NCBI RefSeq assembly: GCF_033546935.1 | Contig: NZ_CP137854.1 | Span: 1,426,001-1,490,000 of the forward strand | DNA: 64,000 bases | Source: Xylophilus sp. GOD-11R | Lineage (GTDB): Bacteria; Pseudomonadota; Gammaproteobacteria; Burkholderiales; Burkholderiaceae_C | Direction: 5' to 3' | In this document: in pieces, positions 4,586-60,106 of the stretch | Position numbering within the stretch: position 1 is the stretch's first letter | How the letters are laid out: each line of letters begins with the position of its first letter | The notes under the pieces: generated by a model | Database searches by the model: none | Seen by the model: only the letters and a program-made list of their open reading frames with translations | What the model was told of the DNA's origin: nothing | Program-made: the position numbers and the translations under genes

Positions 4586-6073
4586 ATGGACCGCCATCCC
4601 GCCCAGATCGAACCCGCCGCACGCCACGCGGTGCCGACCGAATTCCTGAACTTCATCGACGGCTGCCAGGTGCCCGCCTCCGGCGGCGCCACCGTCGAGG
4701 TGATCGACCCGTCCACCGGCGAGGTGTTCACCCGCATCCAGCGCAGCGGCGCGGCCGAGATCGACGACGCGGTGCGGGCGGCCCAACGCGCCTTCCACGG
4801 CGCCTGGGGCAAGCTCACCGCCACCGAGCGCGGCCGGCTGCTGAGCCGGCTGGCGGCGGCCATCCTGGAGCACCAGGACGAGCTCTCCGAACTCGAATGC
4901 CGCGACACCGGCAAACCCATGGTGCAGGCGCGCAACGACATCGCCGCCTGCGCGCGCTATTTCGAGTACTACGGCGGCGCGGCCGACAAGCTGCACGGCG
5001 AGACGATCCCGTACGCGGCCGGCACCACCGTGCTGGCGGTGCGGGTGCCGCACGGCGTCACCGGCCACATCATTCCCTGGAACTACCCCGCGCAGATCTA
5101 CGGCCGCTCGGTGGCCGCCGCGCTGGCCGCCGGCAACTGCTGCGTGGTCAAGCCCGCCGAAGACGCCTGCCTGACCTCGCTGCGGGTGTCGCAGATCGCG
5201 CTGGACGTGGGTTTTCCGGCCGGCGCGATCAACGTGGTCTGCGGCCTGGGCAGCGAAGCCGGCGCGGCCTTGTCGGCGCATCCGGGCATCGCGCATATCT
5301 CGTTCACCGGCTCCACCGCCACCGGCGCGCTGGTGGCCGAGGCGGCGGCGCGGCGACATGTGCCGGTGACGCTGGAGCTCGGCGGCAAGTCGCCGCAGAT
5401 CGTGTTCGCCGATGCCGACATGGAGCAGGCGATTCCGACCATCGTCAACGCCATCATCCAGAGCGCCGGCCAGACCTGCACCGCCGGCAGCCGCGTGCTG
5501 ATCGAGCGCAGCGCCTTCGACGCGGTGATGGCCAGGCTCACCGAGCGCTTCGATGCGCTGGTGGTGGGCCGTGGCCAGGACGACCGCGACCTCGGACCGG
5601 TCATCAACCACCGGCAACGCCAGAAGATCATGGGCATGGTCGACGCGGCCCTGGCCGACGGCGTGAAACTGGCCGCGCGCGGGCGCCTGGCCGACGGTGC
5701 GCCGGCCAACGGCTGTTACGTGCTGCCCACCTTGCTGGCCGAGGTCGATCCCGCACACGCCATCGCCCGCGAGGAAATCTTCGGCCCGGTGCTGGTGGCG
5801 ATCGCCTTCGACGACGAGGCCCAGGCCATCGAGATCGCCAACGGCACCGACTACGGCCTGACCGCCGGCGTCTGGACCCGCGACGGCGCACGCCAGCTGC
5901 GCATGGCCCACGCCATCGAGGCCGGCCAGGTCTTCGTCAACAACTACGGCGCGGGCGGCGGCATCGAACTGCCCTTCGGCGGCATGAAGCACTCGGGCTA
6001 CGGGCGCGAGAAGGCCTTCGAAGGCATGCGCGGCTTCACCACCATCAAGACCATCGCCATCAAGCACGGCTGA
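4586..6073 (+). CDS. NAD(P)-dependent aldehyde dehydrogenase
   Basis: This 495-aa protein, of normal family length, oxidises an aldehyde to its acid. The catalytic Cys298 lies in SAGQTCTAGSR, Glu264 in LELGGKSP, and the cofactor segments IIPWNYP and FTGSTATG are present. A second signature, EEIFGPVL, is near the C-terminus. Overall it resembles the betaine-aldehyde / gamma-aminobutyraldehyde group, but the substrate is not determinable. It follows the 3-hydroxyacid dehydrogenase and precedes an isopropylmalate-dehydrogenase-like gene on the same strand, suggesting successive oxidations in one pathway. Confidence 0.9.
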   Translation: MDRHPAQIEPAARHAVPTEFLNFIDGCQVPASGGATVEVIDPSTGEVFTRIQRSGAAEIDDAVRAAQRAFHGAWGKLTATERGRLLSRLAAAILEHQDELSELECRDTGKPMVQARNDIAACARYFEYYGGAADKLHGETIPYAAGTTVLAVRVPHGVTGHIIPWNYPAQIYGRSVAAALAAGNCCVVKPAEDACLTSLRVSQIALDVGFPAGAINVVCGLGSEAGAALSAHPGIAHISFTGSTATGALVAEAAARRHVPVTLELGGKSPQIVFADADMEQAIPTIVNAIIQSAGQTCTAGSRVLIERSAFDAVMARLTERFDALVVGRGQDDRDLGPVINHRQRQKIMGMVDAALADGVKLAARGRLADGAPANGCYVLPTLLAEVDPAHAIAREEIFGPVLVAIAFDDEAQAIEIANGTDYGLTAGVWTRDGARQLRMAHAIEAGQVFVNNYGAGGGIELPFGGMKHSGYGREKAFEGMRGFTTIKTIAIKHG

Positions 6074-6238
6074 GGGCACGAGGCGACGCCGTGCGGCAGG
6101 CAGCAGACCCGATCCTTGACGACCGCGGTGCCTACGGCGCGCCGGACGGCCGCGTCCACGCGCGCTATCGGCTGGAGACTGGCGACGACCCCAACCGCGC
6201 CGCCAGCCATTCGACCAACCCGCTCCGAAGGAATTTCC

Positions 6239-7369
6239 ATGCCCCTCAAGCAGTACGAAATCGCGACGATCGACGGCGACGGCATCGGCCCGGAGGTCTG
6301 CCAGGCCACCGTGGCGGTGCTGCGCGAAGCCTGCGGTGCCGACCTGCTGAACTTCAGCCACCACGACGGCGGCGCCGACCACTACGCCCGCACCGGCCAC
6401 GTGCTGCCGCCGGACACCTTCGCGGCCTGCAAGACCGCCCACGCGATCCTGCATGGCGCCGCCGGCATGCCGGGCATCACCTATGCCGACGGCACCGAGG
6501 TCGGCAACGACCTGCACCTGCAGCTGCGCTTCAAGCTCGACCTCTACGCCAACGTACGGCCGGTGCGCCTGTGGAAGGGCGTGCGTTCGCCCCTGCGCGA
6601 CTGGCAGGCCGGGCAGATCGACTACGTGATCGTGCGCGAGAACACCGAAGGCCTCTACGCCAGCCGGGGCGGGGGCATCAACCTGCGCGGCGAGGTCTGT
6701 ACCGACACCCTCGTGGTCACCCGCAAAGGCGTCGAACGGGTGGCCCGTTTTTCCTTCGAGCTGTCGCGCAAGCGCCAGGGCGCACCGCGTGACGGCAAGC
6801 GCCGCATGACGGTCTGCGACAAGGCCAACATCCTGCGCAGCTACGCCTTCTTCCGCGCCGTCTGCGACGAGGTGGCGCAGGAATACGGCGACGTCGAGAT
6901 CGACTACGCCTATGTCGACGCGATGACGGTGCACCTGGTGAAGCGGCCCGACTACTACGACGTGATCGTGGCCGAGAACATGTTCGGCGACATCATTTCC
7001 GACCTCGGCGCGGCCACCATCGGCGGCATGGGCTTGTCGCCCTCGGCCGAGCTCGGCGACCACCACGGGCTGTTCCAGGGCGCGCACGGTTCGGCGCCCG
7101 ACATCGCCGGCCAGGACCTGGCGAGCCCGCTGGCCACCATTCTTTCCGGCGCGCTGATGCTGCGCTGGCTGGGCGACCGCCACGACGACACGCGGCTCGT
7201 GTCGGCCGCCGACCGGGTGGAGCAGGCGGTGGAACAGGTGCTCGCCGAAGGCGACGCGGTGCCCCGCGACCTGGGCGGGCAGGCCGGCTGCCGCGCGATG
7301 ACCGCCGCGGTCATCCGGCGCCTCGCGACCGAACGCCAAGACACCGGCATCGCGGAGACGGCCACATGA
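6239..7369 (+). CDS. Isocitrate/isopropylmalate dehydrogenase family protein
   Basis: This 376-aa beta-decarboxylating hydroxyacid dehydrogenase starts at the ATG at 6239 behind an AAGGA sequence. It shows DGDGIGPEV at about 14-22, the substrate segment NVRPVRLWKG, the VRENTEGLYAS loop, the metal-binding region with DAMTVHLV, and the AENMFGDIISDL and GLFQGAHGSAPDIAG signatures. Such enzymes oxidise and decarboxylate 3-alkylmalates, isocitrate, homoisocitrate or tartrate. The catabolic setting argues against the biosynthetic leuB. It closes the series begun by the 3-hydroxyacid and aldehyde dehydrogenases. Confidence 0.85.
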   Translation: MPLKQYEIATIDGDGIGPEVCQATVAVLREACGADLLNFSHHDGGADHYARTGHVLPPDTFAACKTAHAILHGAAGMPGITYADGTEVGNDLHLQLRFKLDLYANVRPVRLWKGVRSPLRDWQAGQIDYVIVRENTEGLYASRGGGINLRGEVCTDTLVVTRKGVERVARFSFELSRKRQGAPRDGKRRMTVCDKANILRSYAFFRAVCDEVAQEYGDVEIDYAYVDAMTVHLVKRPDYYDVIVAENMFGDIISDLGAATIGGMGLSPSAELGDHHGLFQGAHGSAPDIAGQDLASPLATILSGALMLRWLGDRHDDTRLVSAADRVEQAVEQVLAEGDAVPRDLGGQAGCRAMTAAVIRRLATERQDTGIAETAT

Positions 7370-22170: not shown

Positions 22171-22515
22171 ATGGCTAACAACAGCAAGCAGAACTCCGGC
22201 GCTACCAACCATGGCCAAGGCCGTGTGACGGACCCGGCTCACGATGGGCGCCTGAAAGAAAATCACGGCACCACGGACAACAGTGCCAGTCGTGCCCAAG
22301 CGAGTCACGGACAAGGTGCGGTCAAGGACGCATCCGATGGCCGGCTGAAAGAAAACCGCGATGGTGGCACAGCCAATGCACGCGAAGCGACGGGCGCTGA
22401 CCGGGCAAGCGTTGCCAAAAACCAGCCGGGTAGCGGCAGCGGAACGCACGCCAGCAACGGCCAGGGCCGGGTAACCGACCCGGCGCACGACGGGCGATTG
22501 AAGGACAACCGTTGA
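22171..22515 (+). CDS. Small hydrophilic protein with three 18-19-residue repeats
   Basis: This 114-aa, strongly hydrophilic, probably disordered protein has no signal or hydrophobic segment. Three near-identical units occur at residues 13-31, 45-62 and 95-113, built as HGQGRVTDPAHDGRLKEN; the middle copy has AVKDAS in place of RVTDPAH. The first and third copies are also close at DNA level. The linkers are rich in Gly, Ser, Ala and Asn. It is followed by a clear terminator, so it is a single-gene transcript. The composition recalls desiccation- or stress-induced hydrophilins, but the repeat is not a motif I recognise. Confidence 0.75.
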   Translation: MANNSKQNSGATNHGQGRVTDPAHDGRLKENHGTTDNSASRAQASHGQGAVKDASDGRLKENRDGGTANAREATGADRASVAKNQPGSGSGTHASNGQGRVTDPAHDGRLKDNR

Positions 22516-23150: not shown

Positions 23151-24059
23151 ATGGCTACAGGTGGAAGCAGAACTCTCTGGAAGGGCGCCATCACGTTCGG
23201 CCTCGTCCACATTCCCGTCGGCTTGCACACCGCAGCTTCCGCGCAAGGTGTGGATTTCGACTGGCTCGACAAACGGTCGATGGACCCGGTCGGCTACAAG
23301 CGCGTCAACAAGAAGACCGGCAAGGAAATCGACAAGGACGACATCGTGAAGGGCGTGAAGCTCGACGACGACCAGTACGTGGTGATCAGTCCGGAAGAAA
23401 TCGAAGCCGTCTTTCCCAAGACCACGCAGACGATTCAGATCGAGCGCTTCATCGATGCGACCGAGTTGCCGTTCATCTTCCTGGAGCGACCGTATTTCGT
23501 CGCGCCGGTGAACAAGAGCGACAAGGTCTACGCCTTGCTCCGCGAGACGCTCATCGCCACCGGAAAAATCGGGCTCGCCAAGGTCGTCATCGCGACCAAG
23601 CAGCACCTGGCCGCGCTGGTGCCGTCCGGCCCCGCGCTGGTGCTCAACCTGCTGCGGTGGGGCGACGAAGTCAAGACGCTCGACTCGCTGGAACTTCCCG
23701 CCGCCGGATCCAGGGGTGTGAGTGCGGCCGAAATGAAAATGGCCAAGCAGCTCGTCGGGGAGATGTCGGGGTCCTGGAATCCTGACGACTTCAAGGATGA
23801 GTTCCGCATCCAGGTCATGAAGCTCGTCGAGAAAAAGGCCAAGGCCGGTGAAGCCAAAACCGTGCTGCAGCCCGAGGAAGAGGCACCGAAATCCGCCGAT
23901 GTTCTCGACCTGACCGAACTGCTCCAGCGAAGCCTGAAGGGCGGTTCGAAGGCGGCTGCGAAGCCGGCCGCCAAGCCGGCTTCCAGAAAGGCGGCCTCTA
24001 AAAAGGCGGCTTCCGAGCCGGCGGCCAAGAAGGCAGCGCCCCAGAAAAAAGCAGCTTAG
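23151..24059 (+). CDS. ku: Ku DNA end-binding protein of NHEJ
   Basis: This 302-aa homodimeric ring protein binds DNA double-strand ends and recruits LigD. It starts at MATGGSRTLWKGAITFGLVHIPV, in parts the standard bacterial Ku opening. KRVNKKTGKEI and VVISPEEIEAVFPK are core motifs, and EMKMAKQLVGEMSG...FKDEF is the usual end of the core at about residue 225. Past about 260 there is a Lys/Ala-rich tail of the kind known to bind DNA in other bacterial Ku proteins. It is the first gene of the three-gene repair unit. Confidence 0.95.
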   Translation: MATGGSRTLWKGAITFGLVHIPVGLHTAASAQGVDFDWLDKRSMDPVGYKRVNKKTGKEIDKDDIVKGVKLDDDQYVVISPEEIEAVFPKTTQTIQIERFIDATELPFIFLERPYFVAPVNKSDKVYALLRETLIATGKIGLAKVVIATKQHLAALVPSGPALVLNLLRWGDEVKTLDSLELPAAGSRGVSAAEMKMAKQLVGEMSGSWNPDDFKDEFRIQVMKLVEKKAKAGEAKTVLQPEEEAPKSADVLDLTELLQRSLKGGSKAAAKPAAKPASRKAASKKAASEPAAKKAAPQKKAA

Positions 24060-24084: not shown

Positions 24085-24270
24085 ATGTCGGACGACAAGC
24101 GCATGACCGGCGGCCAGGACCGCGACCGCATCAGCCTGAGCGAGGACTACGAGGTCCGCGACCGGTCGACGAAGTTCGGTTTCAGCGCCGACGAACGCCG
24201 CGCCGCGGCGAGAGCAGTCGGCAACCGGGCGGCCGCGGTGGAGGCGCATTGGAAAGACCAAAAGCGCTGA
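24085..24270 (+). CDS. DUF3606 family small protein
   Basis: This 61-aa protein has the DUF3606 pattern: an acidic start, GGQDRDRISLSEDYEVRD, a KFGFSADERRAAARAVG helix and a short tail. The function of the family is unknown. The GGGAG before the ATG, 25 nt after the ku stop, and only 4 nt before the ligD start place it inside the repair operon. A second DUF3606-like gene occurs at 59852. Confidence 0.8.
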   Translation: MSDDKRMTGGQDRDRISLSEDYEVRDRSTKFGFSADERRAAARAVGNRAAAVEAHWKDQKR

Positions 24271-24274
24271 TGCC

Positions 24275-27200
24275 GTGCGCGTCGCTACCTGGAACATCAA
24301 CAACGTCAACAAGCGGATCGATCTGCTGGTCGACTGGCTCCACCGCTTTCAGCCCGACGTTCTCGCGCTGCAAGAGCTGAAGGCGCCCACCGCGCAGTTT
24401 CCGCTGCAGGCAATCGAAGCGGCGGGCTACCGTGCGCTGGTCGTGGGTCAGAAGGCGTGGAACGGGGTCGCGCTGCTCAGCCGAGGGCACGAGCCGCTGC
24501 CCGTCGTCACCGCGCTTTCCGGCGACGCGGCGGACAAGGAGGCGCGCTATCTGGAGGCCGCCATCAACGGCGTGCTGTATGCGTGCCTCTACCTGCCCAA
24601 TGGCAATCCGTGGCCCGGACCCAAGTTCGAATACAAGCTGGCCTGGTTCGAGCGAATGCAGCGGCGAGCTCGGCAACTGTGGGATTCCGGCAGCCCGGTG
24701 GTCCTGCTGGGTGACTGGAACGTCGTTCCCACCGATGCCGACATCTACAAGCCCGACACGTGGCGCGACAACGCGCTGCTGCAGCCGCAAGCGCGCCAGG
24801 CCTTTACCGACATCCTGGCGCAGGGCTGGACCGATGCACTGGCCGCGGCGCATCCCGATGCACCGCTCTTCACCTTCTGGGACTACCGGCGCAAGCGATG
24901 GGAACGCAATGCCGGCTTGCGCATCGATCACATCCTGACCAGCGCCGGCTGGAAGGTGCTCGACGCCGGTGTCGACCGGCAGGAGCGCGGCAAGGAAGGA
25001 TCGAGCGACCATGCACCGGTCTGGGCCGAGCTGTCAGCGCCCGGTAAAGCCGCCAGACGCAGGAAGGCCGCGACGGTGCCGGCCGCCACGGCGGCGAAGG
25101 CAGGCAACCCGCCGCTGGAAACGCCCGTACCGCTGGCGCGGTACAACGCCAAGCGGGATTTCAAAAAAACGGCTGAGCCCGCCGGCGTCTTGCCCGAAAA
25201 ACCCGGCGACGCCCTGATCTTCGTCGTCCAGAAGCACTGGGCCTCTCGCCTGCACTACGACTTTCGTCTCGAACTCGACGGCGTGATGCTGTCCTGGGCG
25301 GTGCCCAAGGGACCGTCCTTCGACCCGGCCACGAAGTCGATGGCCATTCAGGTGGAAGACCATCCCATCTCCTACAACGAGTTCGAGGGAAACATTCCCA
25401 AGGGCGAATATGGGGGCGGCACCGTCATCGTCTGGGACCGTGGGACCTGGGAGCCTGTCGGTGACCCCCGGGAGGGCATGCGCGTCGGAAAAGTGCTTTT
25501 CAAACTGCATGGGCAGAAGCTCGCGGGCCTCTGGGAGCTGGTCCGCATCTCCAAACCCGGCGAGAAGAAGCAGGACCAGTGGATGCTCTTCAAGAAGAAG
25601 GGCGACGCCTGGGCCAGACCGATCGCGCAATACAACGTCATCACCGCGCTGCCGGACAGCGTCGTCGACAAGCCGCTCGGCCTGGTGGAGGCACGCGAAC
25701 CGCGCGAACCAGGCGCACGCCCTTCGAAAGACGCCCGGCCCGACAGCGCCGATGCGATGAGGCTGGCCCGGGCGGCCGACTTCCCGAGCACGCTCGCACC
25801 ACAACTCGCCACCCTGGTGTCGTCCGTGCCGGACGGGCATTGGGTGATCGAGACCAAGTTCGACGGATACCGGCTTCTGGCACGCATCCGAAATGGCGCC
25901 GTGCGCCTGTTCACCCGCAACGGTAACGACTGGACCGACAAGCTCCAGGCGCTGGCCGCTGCCATCGCCGCGATGGGCATCGAGCAAGCATGGCTGGACG
26001 GCGAAATCGTGGTGCTCGACGACGCCGGCCTGCCCGACTTCAACGCGCTGCAGAACGCCATGGATGGCGCGAAGGCGCGGGACATCGTGATGTTCGTTTT
26101 CGATGTGCCGTTCTTCGGTGAGATGGACCTGCGTGCGGTCCCCCTGGCCAGCCGCCGCGCCCTCCTGCGGGACCTGTTCGAGGAGCGCGAAAGCGAGCTC
26201 GTGCGGTTCAGCCAGTCGTTCGAAGTCCAGCCCGCACAGCTGCTGGGCGCGGCTTGCAGGATGGGGCTCGAGGGTGTCATGGTCAAGCGCGCGGATGCGC
26301 CCTACAGCTCCGGCCGGACCGACTCCTGGATGAAGTTGAAATGCCAGCACCGGCAGGAGTTCGTGGTGGTTGGCTTCACCGACCGATCGGGCGGGGCGAA
26401 GGAGGTGGGCGGGCTTCTCCTCGGCTACCACGAGGCTGGCGAACTTCGCTACGCGGGGTCGGTGGGCACTGGCTGGGGTTCCGCGACCGGACAGGACCTC
26501 CATCGCAAGCTGTCCGGGCTGCAGATCGACAAGCCCGCGCTGAACCCCGCCGAGCTCCAGCCCGGGCGATGGACGAAACGCAAGGCCGGCACGGAGCGCT
26601 GGGTCGAGCCAACGGTCGTGGTGGAGATCGCATTCACGGAATGGACTCCCGACAAGCATGTGCGCCACCCGGTGTTCCGTGGGATACGGACGGACAAGCC
26701 GGCGGCGCTCGTCGTGCGGGAACAGCCCCAGGCCATGCCCGCGTCGAAAACGGCGCCGCCAACAAAACCCAAAGCCAGCACGGTCAAGGTTTCCAATCCC
26801 GAGCGGGTCATCGATGCCTCCACCGGCCTGCGAAAAATCGACCTGGTGCATTACTACGAGAGCATCGCGGAGTTCATGCTCCCGCACCTGAAGAACCGGC
26901 CGACTTCGCTGGTGCGGGCACCTTCGGGCATCGCGGGCCAGCTCTTCTTTCAGAAGCACCTCGAACACCGAATGCCGGGCGTGCGCGAGCTGGACGCCGA
27001 GCTCTGGCCCGGCCACACGGCCCTGCTCGCCGTGGAATCCGTGGAGGCACTCGCTTCCGCAGCCCAGATGAACGTGGTCGAGTTCCATACCTGGAACGCG
27101 ACGGCATCCCGTATCGACCGACCCGACCGCTTCATTCTCGACCTCGACCCGGGCGAAGGCGTGACCTGGCCGATGCTGCAGGAGGCGGCTCAGCTCACCC

Positions 27201-27649
27201 GGGTGATGCTGACCGAACTGGGGCTGGAGAGCTGGCTCAAGACCAGCGGTGGCAAGGGCCTGCACGTCGTTGTGCCGATCACGCCGAAGATGCAGTACGA
27301 CGACGTCAAGGCCTTCTCGCAAGCCGTGGTTCAGCACATGGCCAGGGTCATCCCGTCCAAATTCGTGGCGGTGATGGGCGGCGCGAACCGCGTGGGAAAA
27401 ATTTTCATCGACTACCTGCGCAACGGGCACGGCCAGACGACGGCATGCGCGTTTTCCGCGCGCTCCAGGCCCGGGCTCGGCGTGTCCATGCCGGTCAGCT
27501 GGGAGCAGCTCGGTGCGCTCAAAAGCGGGTCCCAGTGGACCATCGCCACCGCGCGCGAATACCTGAGCTTTCAGAAAGAAGACCCATGGGCCGGGTATTG
27601 GAAGAAGAAGCAAACCTTGGCGCAAGGACTGCGACTCTTGAAGCGATAG
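24275..27649 (+). CDS. ligD: Multidomain DNA ligase D with N-terminal exonuclease III domain
   Basis: This 1124-aa protein starts at GTG 24275. Residues 1-252 form a complete exonuclease III / AP-endonuclease domain: WNINNVNKR at 6-14, Glu34 in LQELK, GDWNV (Asp147, Asn149) and SDHAPV (Asp245, His246). After a short Ala/Lys linker, residues 285-450 are the LigD 3'-phosphoesterase domain (His321, His327, Asp329, Arg331 in RLHYDFRLE). The ATP-dependent ligase domain follows with catalytic Lys528 in TKFDGYR. The C-terminal polymerase/primase domain begins near 840 and has metal Asp956 and Asp958 in LDLDP. The order PE-ligase-polymerase is a known LigD arrangement; the fused exonuclease domain is the unusual part. 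All active-site residues are intact, so it could process, fill and seal ends with Ku. Confidence 0.92.
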   Translation: MRVATWNINNVNKRIDLLVDWLHRFQPDVLALQELKAPTAQFPLQAIEAAGYRALVVGQKAWNGVALLSRGHEPLPVVTALSGDAADKEARYLEAAINGVLYACLYLPNGNPWPGPKFEYKLAWFERMQRRARQLWDSGSPVVLLGDWNVVPTDADIYKPDTWRDNALLQPQARQAFTDILAQGWTDALAAAHPDAPLFTFWDYRRKRWERNAGLRIDHILTSAGWKVLDAGVDRQERGKEGSSDHAPVWAELSAPGKAARRRKAATVPAATAAKAGNPPLETPVPLARYNAKRDFKKTAEPAGVLPEKPGDALIFVVQKHWASRLHYDFRLELDGVMLSWAVPKGPSFDPATKSMAIQVEDHPISYNEFEGNIPKGEYGGGTVIVWDRGTWEPVGDPREGMRVGKVLFKLHGQKLAGLWELVRISKPGEKKQDQWMLFKKKGDAWARPIAQYNVITALPDSVVDKPLGLVEAREPREPGARPSKDARPDSADAMRLARAADFPSTLAPQLATLVSSVPDGHWVIETKFDGYRLLARIRNGAVRLFTRNGNDWTDKLQALAAAIAAMGIEQAWLDGEIVVLDDAGLPDFNALQNAMDGAKARDIVMFVFDVPFFGEMDLRAVPLASRRALLRDLFEERESELVRFSQSFEVQPAQLLGAACRMGLEGVMVKRADAPYSSGRTDSWMKLKCQHRQEFVVVGFTDRSGGAKEVGGLLLGYHEAGELRYAGSVGTGWGSATGQDLHRKLSGLQIDKPALNPAELQPGRWTKRKAGTERWVEPTVVVEIAFTEWTPDKHVRHPVFRGIRTDKPAALVVREQPQAMPASKTAPPTKPKASTVKVSNPERVIDASTGLRKIDLVHYYESIAEFMLPHLKNRPTSLVRAPSGIAGQLFFQKHLEHRMPGVRELDAELWPGHTALLAVESVEALASAAQMNVVEFHTWNATASRIDRPDRFILDLDPGEGVTWPMLQEAAQLTRVMLTELGLESWLKTSGGKGLHVVVPITPKMQYDDVKAFSQAVVQHMARVIPSKFVAVMGGANRVGKIFIDYLRNGHGQTTACAFSARSRPGLGVSMPVSWEQLGALKSGSQWTIATAREYLSFQKEDPWAGYWKKKQTLAQGLRLLKR

Positions 27650-59851: not shown

Positions 59852-60106
59852 ATGAACGACCAGACCAGCGCTTCTTCTTCTTCTTCTTCGTCCGGCGGCG
59901 CCGTCCCCGACCGCATCGATGCCGGCTCCGAGGCGTCCGTCTCGCAATGGGCGCGCAAGCTCGATGCGACCGACATGCAGATTCGCGACGCGATCGCCGA
60001 GGTCGGCAGCCTGGCCACCGACGTCGAGATGCATCTGAAGGGCAGCCGCAGCACCACGAACGACGACCGCGTGGACGAGGCGGGCGGCACGACCGGGGCT
60101 GGCTGA
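59852..60106 (+). CDS. DUF3606-like small protein with poly-serine start
   Basis: This 84-aa protein has a GAGGAG ribosome binding site. After MNDQTSA come seven consecutive serines, encoded largely by repeated TCT triplets. Residues 28-65 ([20 protein letters not shown], then [13 protein letters not shown]) match the helical DUF3606 pattern. Function unknown. It is probably stress-related by its neighbours. Confidence 0.7.

Follow-up and report, generated by a model that had tools for sequence, protein, structure and literature searches.

The question raised by one gene of Xylophilus sp. GOD-11R, located in the 64,000-nucleotide stretch of DNA analysed here (the window), is why a LigD should carry an exonuclease III (ExoIII/Xth) domain at its front. 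A related question is what such a domain (hereafter Exo) contributes to bacterial NHEJ, commonly portrayed as the work of two proteins.

Organization of the Exo-LigD locus

The initial annotation described an ExoIII domain joined to a complete LigD within a three-gene NHEJ operon, and both parts of that description hold. The frame is open from its GTG start to its stop codon without an internal stop, and it lies two genes downstream of a co-directional Ku gene, with gaps of 25 nt between the Ku and DUF3606 genes and 4 nt between the DUF3606 gene and Exo-LigD (Table 1). Pfam matches on the product were Exo_endo_phos (4-246, E 2e-28), LigD_N (319-424), DNA_ligase_A_M (511-689), DNA_ligase_A_C (708-808) and LigD_Prim-Pol (854-1105).

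Table 1. Coordinates of the operon genes and of the domains of Exo-LigD in the window
Feature	Position	Strand	Description
Ku gene	23151..24059	+	302 aa, ATG at 23151, first operon gene; TIGR02772 282.3 bits (cut-off 150); PF02735
DUF3606 gene	24085..24270	+	61 aa, second operon gene; PF12244 46.4 bits (cut-off 24.3), E 3.5e-12
Exo-LigD gene	24275..27649	+	1124 aa, GTG start 4 nt past the DUF3606 stop
ExoIII/Xth domain	24275..25039	+	residues 1-255; catalytic E34, D147, N149, D218, D245, H246; specificity N109, L168
LigD phosphoesterase (PE) domain	25133..25600	+	residues 287-442; TIGR02777 (LigD_PE_dom) 224 bits (cut-off 144)
ATP-dependent DNA ligase domain	25787..26719	+	residues ~505-815; nucleophile K528; PF01068, PF04679; TIGR02779 at 509-813
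Primase-polymerase domain	26783..27604	+	residues ~837-1110; D956, D958; PF21686 at 854-1105; TIGR02778 at 837-1080

The LigD portion has the PE, ATP-ligase and AEP polymerase domains of bacterial LigD in one protein, all above cut-off (for ligD_pol, 289 bits against 215). Its catalytic residues are present, namely K528 (in KFDGYR), D956, D958 and, in PE, H321, H327, D329, R331, H363 and Y367. By motif and spacing, Q319, H321, H327, D329, R331, S340, H363 and Y367 correspond to Gln40, His42, His48, Asp50, Arg52, Ser61, His84 and Tyr88, the PE residues of P. aeruginosa LigD given in PMC8656161. Exo-LigD shares with the PE-LIG-POL LigD of the Pseudomonas aeruginosa type the same three domains, their order, the catalytic residues and an upstream Ku gene, but adds a 255-aa Xth domain in front, and in some relatives Xth replaces PE. 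The second LigD of the window genome is without an Exo domain.

The Exo portion scores above the cut-offs of TIGR00633 xth (212.9 bits against 99) and TIGR00195 (210.9 against 182.6), and all of the ExoIII/Xth family residues are present (N7, E34, D147, N149, D218, D245 and H246). The residues on which the initial annotation relied (E34, D147, N149, D245, H246, K528, D956 and D958) were each found at the position claimed. In the listed fused rows, which are the best 120 of 462, E34, D147, N149, D218, D245 and H246 are kept in 120 of 120 and N7 in 119, with a gap in one. An AlphaFold2 model of the domain (pLDDT 92.1, pTM 0.91) has as its closest PDB fold NExo, the 3'-phosphatase of the ExoIII family from Neisseria meningitidis (PDB 2jc4, 6fk4, 6fk5; for 6fk5, TM 0.91 and 38% identity), which is also the closest solved structure by sequence (180 bits); profiles and predicted fold agree in placing the domain in the Xth family.

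Distribution and origin of the fusion

Fusion of Exo to LigD is a recurrent, sporadic architecture in the Burkholderiales and is not unique to the window. A search with the Exo domain gave 462 matches, and all 120 of those listed join Exo to a ligase domain. Since these come from many contigs, chance or assembly error is very unlikely, and an assembly or frameshift artefact was rejected, the architecture recurring both in the 120 listed proteins and in the single-contig genomes G000 and G517, the latter PE-less. The fusion was found in 5 of the 150 genomes of the family draw, including the window's own, and 2 of the 5 have broken or shortened frames. Of the 8 other Burkholderiales fused genes examined, 7 have a DUF3606 match no more than ~2 kb away, and a literature search on DUF3606 gave no paper title on NHEJ.

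The fused Exo domains of the Burkholderiales form one clade in the tree. A second fusion, of 1122 aa, occurs in a Pseudomonadaceae-like genome (L128) and probably arose independently of the Burkholderiales one; two fusions are preferred because the L128 Exo domain is 81% identical to a free-standing copy from f55 and because of a branch marked 99*. An AU test of both fusions as a single clade, L128 included, gave p 0.087 and did not reject that arrangement. Plasmid carriage of the fusion was discarded, as the 289 plasmid records that match Exo (E <= 1e-50) are all below 60% identity, the range of free-standing copies. Viral carriage was also discarded, viral contigs having three weak loci.

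The view that this is not a standard LigD form survives in part. No description of Exo-LigD was found in the literature searched, outside which lay supplementary table 10 of PMC7719229, which covers 20 additional domains in Ku/LigD proteins and may list this one, but the fusion does recur in the Burkholderiales and in a Pseudomonadaceae-like genome.

Predicted activity of the Exo domain

The specificity positions of the Exo domain point to a 3'-phosphatase rather than an AP endonuclease. Asn109 and Leu168 are each invariant in 120/120 listed fused rows and in 91/91 free-standing rows, and the signature of the subfamily is PNGNP at 108-112 and AL at 167-168. Asn109 is the equivalent of NExo Asn108, which supports 3'-phosphatase activity (PMC6294502), whereas NApe has Ser112 (PMC6294502) and ExoIII has Gln112 (PMC4750427; alignment). 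At the Leu168 position NExo, which is free-standing, has His167. At this position of the abasic-sugar pocket, Gly or Ser is found in AP endonucleases that have been characterised, and His in weak ones; with His, NExo leaves native AP sites uncleaved and MtbXthA is weak (PMC6294502, PMC3731287). The reference residues in the available parts of these two papers are Gly, Ser and His, and Leu is not among them. E. coli exonuclease III, NApe and APE1 have fold and family in common with the Exo domain but carry Ser or Gly where it has Leu (PMC3731287). In the window genome, a free-standing Xth (L008) has Gly at the equivalent site, and an NExo-type Xth (L007), 40% identical to the fused domain, has His.

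The domain is predicted from these residues to be a 3'-phosphatase/phosphodiesterase/exonuclease with weak AP-endonuclease activity. The initial suggestion that a single protein could remove abasic or blocked 3' ends draws support from the intact Xth domain, but its abasic part is the weakest given the invariant Leu168.

We consider it likely that Exo is a Ku-linked 3'-end cleaner of the Xth subfamily for NHEJ, fused to LigD and overlapping in function with PE. At double-strand breaks Exo would unblock 3' ends, its candidate substrates being 3'-phosphate and 3'-phosphodiester remnants (phosphoglycolate and the AP-lyase unsaturated aldehyde), and it may also carry out limited 3'-5' trimming. 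Ku would hold Exo-LigD at the break, where Exo would clean the 3' end and PE would handle ribonucleotide tails, and POL would then fill and LIG seal within the same polypeptide. Because Exo is tethered to LigD in the window species, one Ku-held polypeptide could clean, fill and seal. PE is itself a 3'-phosphatase (PMC8656161), and Ku and LigD have AP lyase and dRP lyase activity, respectively (PMC4770248). The mycobacterial LigC complex, which works with ExoIII/XthA/EndoIV, resembles Exo-LigD in that an NHEJ-type ligase/polymerase is paired with ExoIII-family end cleaners, but LigC-BER is a non-covalent association acting in base excision repair whereas Exo-LigD is a covalent fusion in a Ku operon (PMC5663958).

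Exo could instead be a true AP endonuclease, making Exo-LigD a one-piece enzyme for base excision or clustered damage that would cut at abasic sites close to breaks and then fill and seal. The exodeoxyribonuclease III models TIGR00633 and TIGR00195 are above cut-off, and W202 is present in an FWDYR motif, which we take to be the motif that holds Trp212 of ExoIII. AP activity is not determined by the pocket residue alone, because NExo with His167 changed to Gly cleaves AP sites almost 3000-fold more slowly than NApe (PMC6294502). Moreover, B. subtilis LigD carries out AP-site repair in vitro once an AP endonuclease has acted (PMC4770248), and the partners of mycobacterial LigC include ExoIII/XthA (PMC5663958). 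Nevertheless, this alternative appears unlikely, since Leu168 is invariant where AP-active enzymes carry Gly or Ser (PMC6294502, PMC3731287) and the window genome has a separate Gly-type copy.

Association of the Xth subfamily with Ku

More informative than the fusion itself is the link between Ku and the Xth subfamily as a whole. In the family draw, in which G103, with a 40% match and no Ku, was not counted as a subfamily member, Ku was present in 17/17 genomes with the subfamily versus 27/133 without it (p 6e-11), and in 12/12 (p 3e-8) when the 5 fusion genomes were left out because the fusion is itself an NHEJ gene; in the phylum draw, Ku was present in 48/51 versus 19/268 (p 1e-37), and in 46/49 (p 3e-36) without the fused G000 and G763, all four p values being uncorrected for relatedness and genome size. 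The 51 subfamily genomes of the phylum draw come from 26 genera, and the 48 that have Ku span 14 family codes; the 3 without Ku all have family code f83 and match at 46-50% identity. Ku was also present in 50/50 genomes chosen from those of the 77 named free-standing loci, including 16 Bacteroidota and 1 Verrucomicrobiota as judged from record titles, a choice that left out 20 metagenome bins and L080, L088, L093, L102, L106, L109 and L114 and that contains 4 loci (L047, L050, L054, L075) already known to adjoin Ku. Exo is dispensable for NHEJ, since the subfamily is absent (E <= 1e-75) from 19/67 Ku genomes of the phylum draw, the congener G020 has Ku and LigD_N with no Exo match, and the window genome has its Exo-less second LigD.

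The initial annotation had proposed to look in relatives for separate xth genes next to ligD, and these do occur, in a minority of loci. Free-standing Exo adjoins LigD and Ku in L040, L050, L054 and L114 and adjoins Ku in L047, L075, L018 and L035, and the gene order in L123 and L125 is LigD-Ku-TPR-hydrolase-Exo. No Ku is nearby at 12/14 free-standing loci of the family draw, and 71/77 named free-standing loci have no NHEJ genes within the available flanks of up to 6 kb on each side.

This separation from NHEJ genes, together with the 4-9 Mb size of many genomes that have Exo and Ku, would suit a general oxidative-damage enzyme whose link to Ku reflects shared presence in large-genome soil bacteria and whose fusion to LigD is a neutral accident. 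Such an explanation is quite improbable, as genomes of 2.8-3.0 Mb (G653, G756, G813) have both Exo and Ku, the control with NExo-type Xth does not track Ku (11/39 versus 56/280, p 0.29), the same partner has probably been fused twice, and neighbourhoods are shared in several families.

That relatives of the Exo domain are almost restricted to genomes with the pathway suggests a third member of NHEJ that has been missed. Because the subfamily is nearly confined to Ku genomes in the draws made, occurs near Ku/LigD in several lineages and has members joined to LigD in two families, we infer that this member acts in 3'-end processing. Whether NHEJ in many Pseudomonadota and Bacteroidota would consist of three parts, Ku, LigD and a signature-bearing Xth 3'-end cleaner that has joined LigD in two or more separate fusions and can replace PE, is in our estimate an even call.

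Changes in the PE domain within the fused clade

PE is absent from 16/113 fused proteins, which corresponds to at least 7 changes on a tree in which losses are indistinguishable from regains and which took in 14 PE-less rows, leaving out P0071, which did not pass the length filter, and P0068, which was outside the list. One of the PE-less fusions is in the complete genome G517. Among the 120 listed unfused proteins found with a LIG-POL query, 4 are PE-less (p 0.004 against the fused proteins); P0245 and P0307 are apparently cut at the N-terminus and P0309 is apparently a true deletion. This control replaced an earlier one, in which 120/120 listed proteins have PE and which was not used because its PE-containing query is biased towards PE-bearing matches. 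Pooling the controls gives 4/205 PE-less (p 3.6e-5), a figure that leans towards PE-bearing proteins and is not relied on.

Crc, an Xth relative with the same fold that appears among the sequence and structure matches, is catalytically inactive, but the idea that Exo is likewise a dead module for DNA binding or protein docking can very nearly be dismissed, given that none of its catalytic positions varies across the 120 listed fused rows and that all are intact in the 16 PE-less forms. An active Exo domain may substitute for part of the work of PE, and the repeated absence of PE in the fused clade amounts to a natural replacement experiment on the role of PE and on the 3' lesions that are limiting for bacterial end joining.

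The Exo-LigD gene and its operon

The initial annotation described a LigD preceded by an ExoIII/Xth domain (Exo) in a single protein, and this reading is borne out by the gene, which contains no internal stop, and by the product, in which every catalytic residue listed in that annotation is present (see table). The gene for a 61-aa DUF3606 protein is co-directional and lies 4 nt upstream of the Exo-LigD start, and a co-directional Ku gene lies 25 nt upstream of the DUF3606 gene. Of the eight Burkholderiales fused loci examined, seven have a DUF3606 match, on either strand, no more than ~2 kb from Exo-LigD (L028, L031, L033, L036, L037, L122 and, weakly, L032); none was found at L034. DUF3606 matches also adjoin free-standing exo genes in L022 and L023, and the protein is possibly a small partner in NHEJ, the Ku and LigD break-joining pathway. 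The only other DUF3606 match in the window genome is at ~59897-60040 (+) of the window, ~35 kb from the NHEJ operon. Upstream of the operon is a hydrophilic 114-aa ORF with recurring GQGRVTDPAHDGRLKENH-like motifs, which has no Pfam family over cut-off.

Features of the Exo-LigD gene and of the DNA upstream of its operon
Feature	Position	Strand	Basis
Exo-LigD	window 24275-27649	+	single open frame, 1124 codons, GTG start
ExoIII/Xth domain (Exo)	residues 1-253		Pfam and NCBIfam, over curated cut-off
LigD phosphoesterase domain (PE)	residues 287-442		Pfam and NCBIfam, over curated cut-off
ATP-dependent ligase domain (LIG)	residues 509-813		Pfam and NCBIfam, over curated cut-off
LigD primase-polymerase (POL)	residues 837-1080 (TIGR02778); 854-1105 (Pfam)		over curated cut-off
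114-aa ORF	window 22171-22515	+	

The genome is a single 5.13-Mb contig (C1) with a second LigD, lacking Exo, at ~886 kb and a second Ku at ~2.005 Mb, far from the second LigD. Two free-standing Xth genes are present as well, which makes the fused Exo the third type of Xth there. Their products share 40% (L007) and 26% (L008) identity with the fused Exo.

Predicted activity of the fused Exo

The nearest solved relative of the fused Exo, both by sequence (180 bits) and by fold (AlphaFold2 pLDDT 92.1, Foldseek TM 0.91), is NExo of Neisseria. As described in PMC6294502, NExo acts as a 3'-phosphatase and leaves native AP sites uncut, a property to which Asn108 and His167 contribute along with further determinants, as H167G restores AP cleavage that is only slow. 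The pocket residue in AP-active enzymes is Gly or Ser (Gly231 in HAP1, Gly170 in NApe, Ser178 in ExoIII), and M. tuberculosis XthA, with His201 in the pocket, has weak AP activity (PMC3731287). In the HMMER alignment, NExo Asn108 corresponds to Asn109 of the fused Exo and His167 to Leu168; L007 has His and L008 has Gly at the latter position. Asn109 and Leu168 are invariant in 120/120 fused rows (the best 120 of 462 matches) and 91/91 free-standing rows of this Xth subfamily. Leu168 would act as a bulky block much as His does, so that the fused Exo is predicted to clean 3' ends strongly and to incise AP sites weakly.

Ku and LigD in other bacteria are described as having AP/dRP lyase activities (PMC4770248; PMC4245934), and since lyase action leaves 3' products, a 3'-end cleaner would be needed. 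In the activities and order of steps that we infer, Ku would grip the DNA ends, Exo would take off 3' blocks, PE would trim ribonucleotide tails in those proteins that keep it, and POL would fill before LIG seals.

Association of the Xth subfamily with Ku

Ku is present in all 17 genomes with the subfamily in a draw of 150 from the family (best match at least 53% identity, which excludes G103 at 40% and without Ku), versus 27 of the 133 others; with the five fusion carriers removed, the count is 12/12. Among 319 genomes drawn from the phylum, 51 carry the subfamily at E <= 1e-75, and Ku occurs in 48 of these versus 19/268 others (46/49 with the two fused genomes removed). In the same draw, the control, NExo-type Xth, is accompanied by Ku in 11/39 genomes versus 56/280 without it. 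All 50 genomes of the chosen named free-standing loci have Ku.

The suggestion that separate xth genes might stand beside ligD in relatives holds in part: in the flanking sequence covered, up to 6 kb on each side, Ku or LigD adjoins 6 of 77 named loci (L040, L047, L050, L054, L075 and L114) and 2 of 14 family loci (L018 and L035). Eight phylum-draw genomes have Exo and Ku on the same strand 2.6-3.3 kb apart, and in the four of these examined (L123-L126, all of family code f89) LigD points the same way as Ku and Exo. Between Ku and Exo in L123 (4983-6993) lie two genes, assigned by Pfam to TPR and Abhydrolase_11, with a matching pair by sequence likeness in L125 (5293-7016), giving the order LigD-Ku-TPR-hydrolase-Exo; Ku and the TPR gene share 4 nt.

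Distribution and origin of the fusion

A check for other LigDs with an N-terminal Exo, using this domain only as query, matched 462 proteins, and the fusion recurs in all of the best 120, with named sources that include Variovorax, Acidovorax, Pseudorhodoferax, Xylophilus, Aquincola, Ottowia, Mitsuaria and Roseateles. By our own profiles, Exo and LIG occur together in 120/120 of these, with POL in 113 and with POL and PE in 97. Across whole genomes the fusion is sporadic, being found in 5/150 family-draw genomes, the window genome included, and in 2/399 from the order at a strict cut-off (E <= 1e-108); the family-draw search gave no match to Exo in the congeners G020 and G148. In G056 and G146 of the family draw the ligase part has a frame break or deletion, and G078 has an intact fusion plus a split copy. 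L033 has a fused gene with shortened ligase/polymerase, and in L034 the ligase match is split between two frames. The architecture is implicit in domain databases through precomputed Pfam assignments. A LigD of 1046 aa from a Ramlibacter MAG (P0189) has a precomputed PF01028 besides the usual domains. Neither an Xth-LigD fusion nor a Ku-tied Xth subfamily is mentioned in the accessible portions of PMC8656161, PMC7719229, PMC1378119, PMC5663958, PMC10273834, PMC10932983 or the other open-access literature searched; PMC7719229 refers to 20 additional domains in Ku/LigD proteins, given in a supplementary table.

The source of the fused Exo is the free-standing subfamily, whose members are mostly 50-61% identical to it and occur in alpha-, beta- and gammaproteobacteria and Bacteroidota, as well as on many plasmids. 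A 97-row Exo tree places the fused domains of Burkholderiales in a single clade (54 rows; starred branch, 100), whose sister (starred, 98) is L029, a split Exo/LigD pair in which the Exo frame stops ~40 bp short of the PE match. One Exo-only locus, L038, is nested within the fused clade. This lone Exo of Pseudorhodoferax sp. Leaf274 (5872-6807; 311-aa frame, 77% identity) has no LigD match within the surrounding 12.8 kb.

Another Exo-PE-LIG-POL protein, of 1122 aa, is found in G763, a genome of family code f55, which looks like Pseudomonadaceae because G817, also f55, and Stutzerimonas zhaodongensis (L060) have identical domains. Among free-standing f55 copies, the best match to the G763 Exo shares 81% identity with it, and in the tree this Exo falls in a group with three f55 copies (starred, 99). 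The LigD scores of the G763 protein (PE 220, LIG 382, POL 346) are in the range of unfused LigDs, below those of the Burkholderiales fused proteins. Together these point to a second fusion event; a single clade for both fusions is not rejected by the AU test (p 0.087).

Absence of PE from fused proteins

PE turns a 3'-phosphate into a 3'-OH and also trims ribonucleotides from 3' ends (PMC8656161). It is absent, with Exo joined straight to the ligase, from 16 of the best 120 of 462 matches, or 16/113 with Exo, LIG and POL, and among the matches listed this share exceeds that of unfused LigDs scored for LIG-POL (4/120, two seemingly truncated; p 0.004). Overlap with the predicted 3'-phosphatase activity of Xth would explain why PE is dispensable. 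An Exo+LIG+POL tree, built on 841 columns from 62 rows of which 14 lack PE, requires nine changes in PE state, seven forced by starred branches, with loss and regain indistinguishable. The single-contig genome G517 encodes a PE-less fused protein (946-aa frame, Pfam-confirmed) and, additionally, a Ku-LigD pair with PE.
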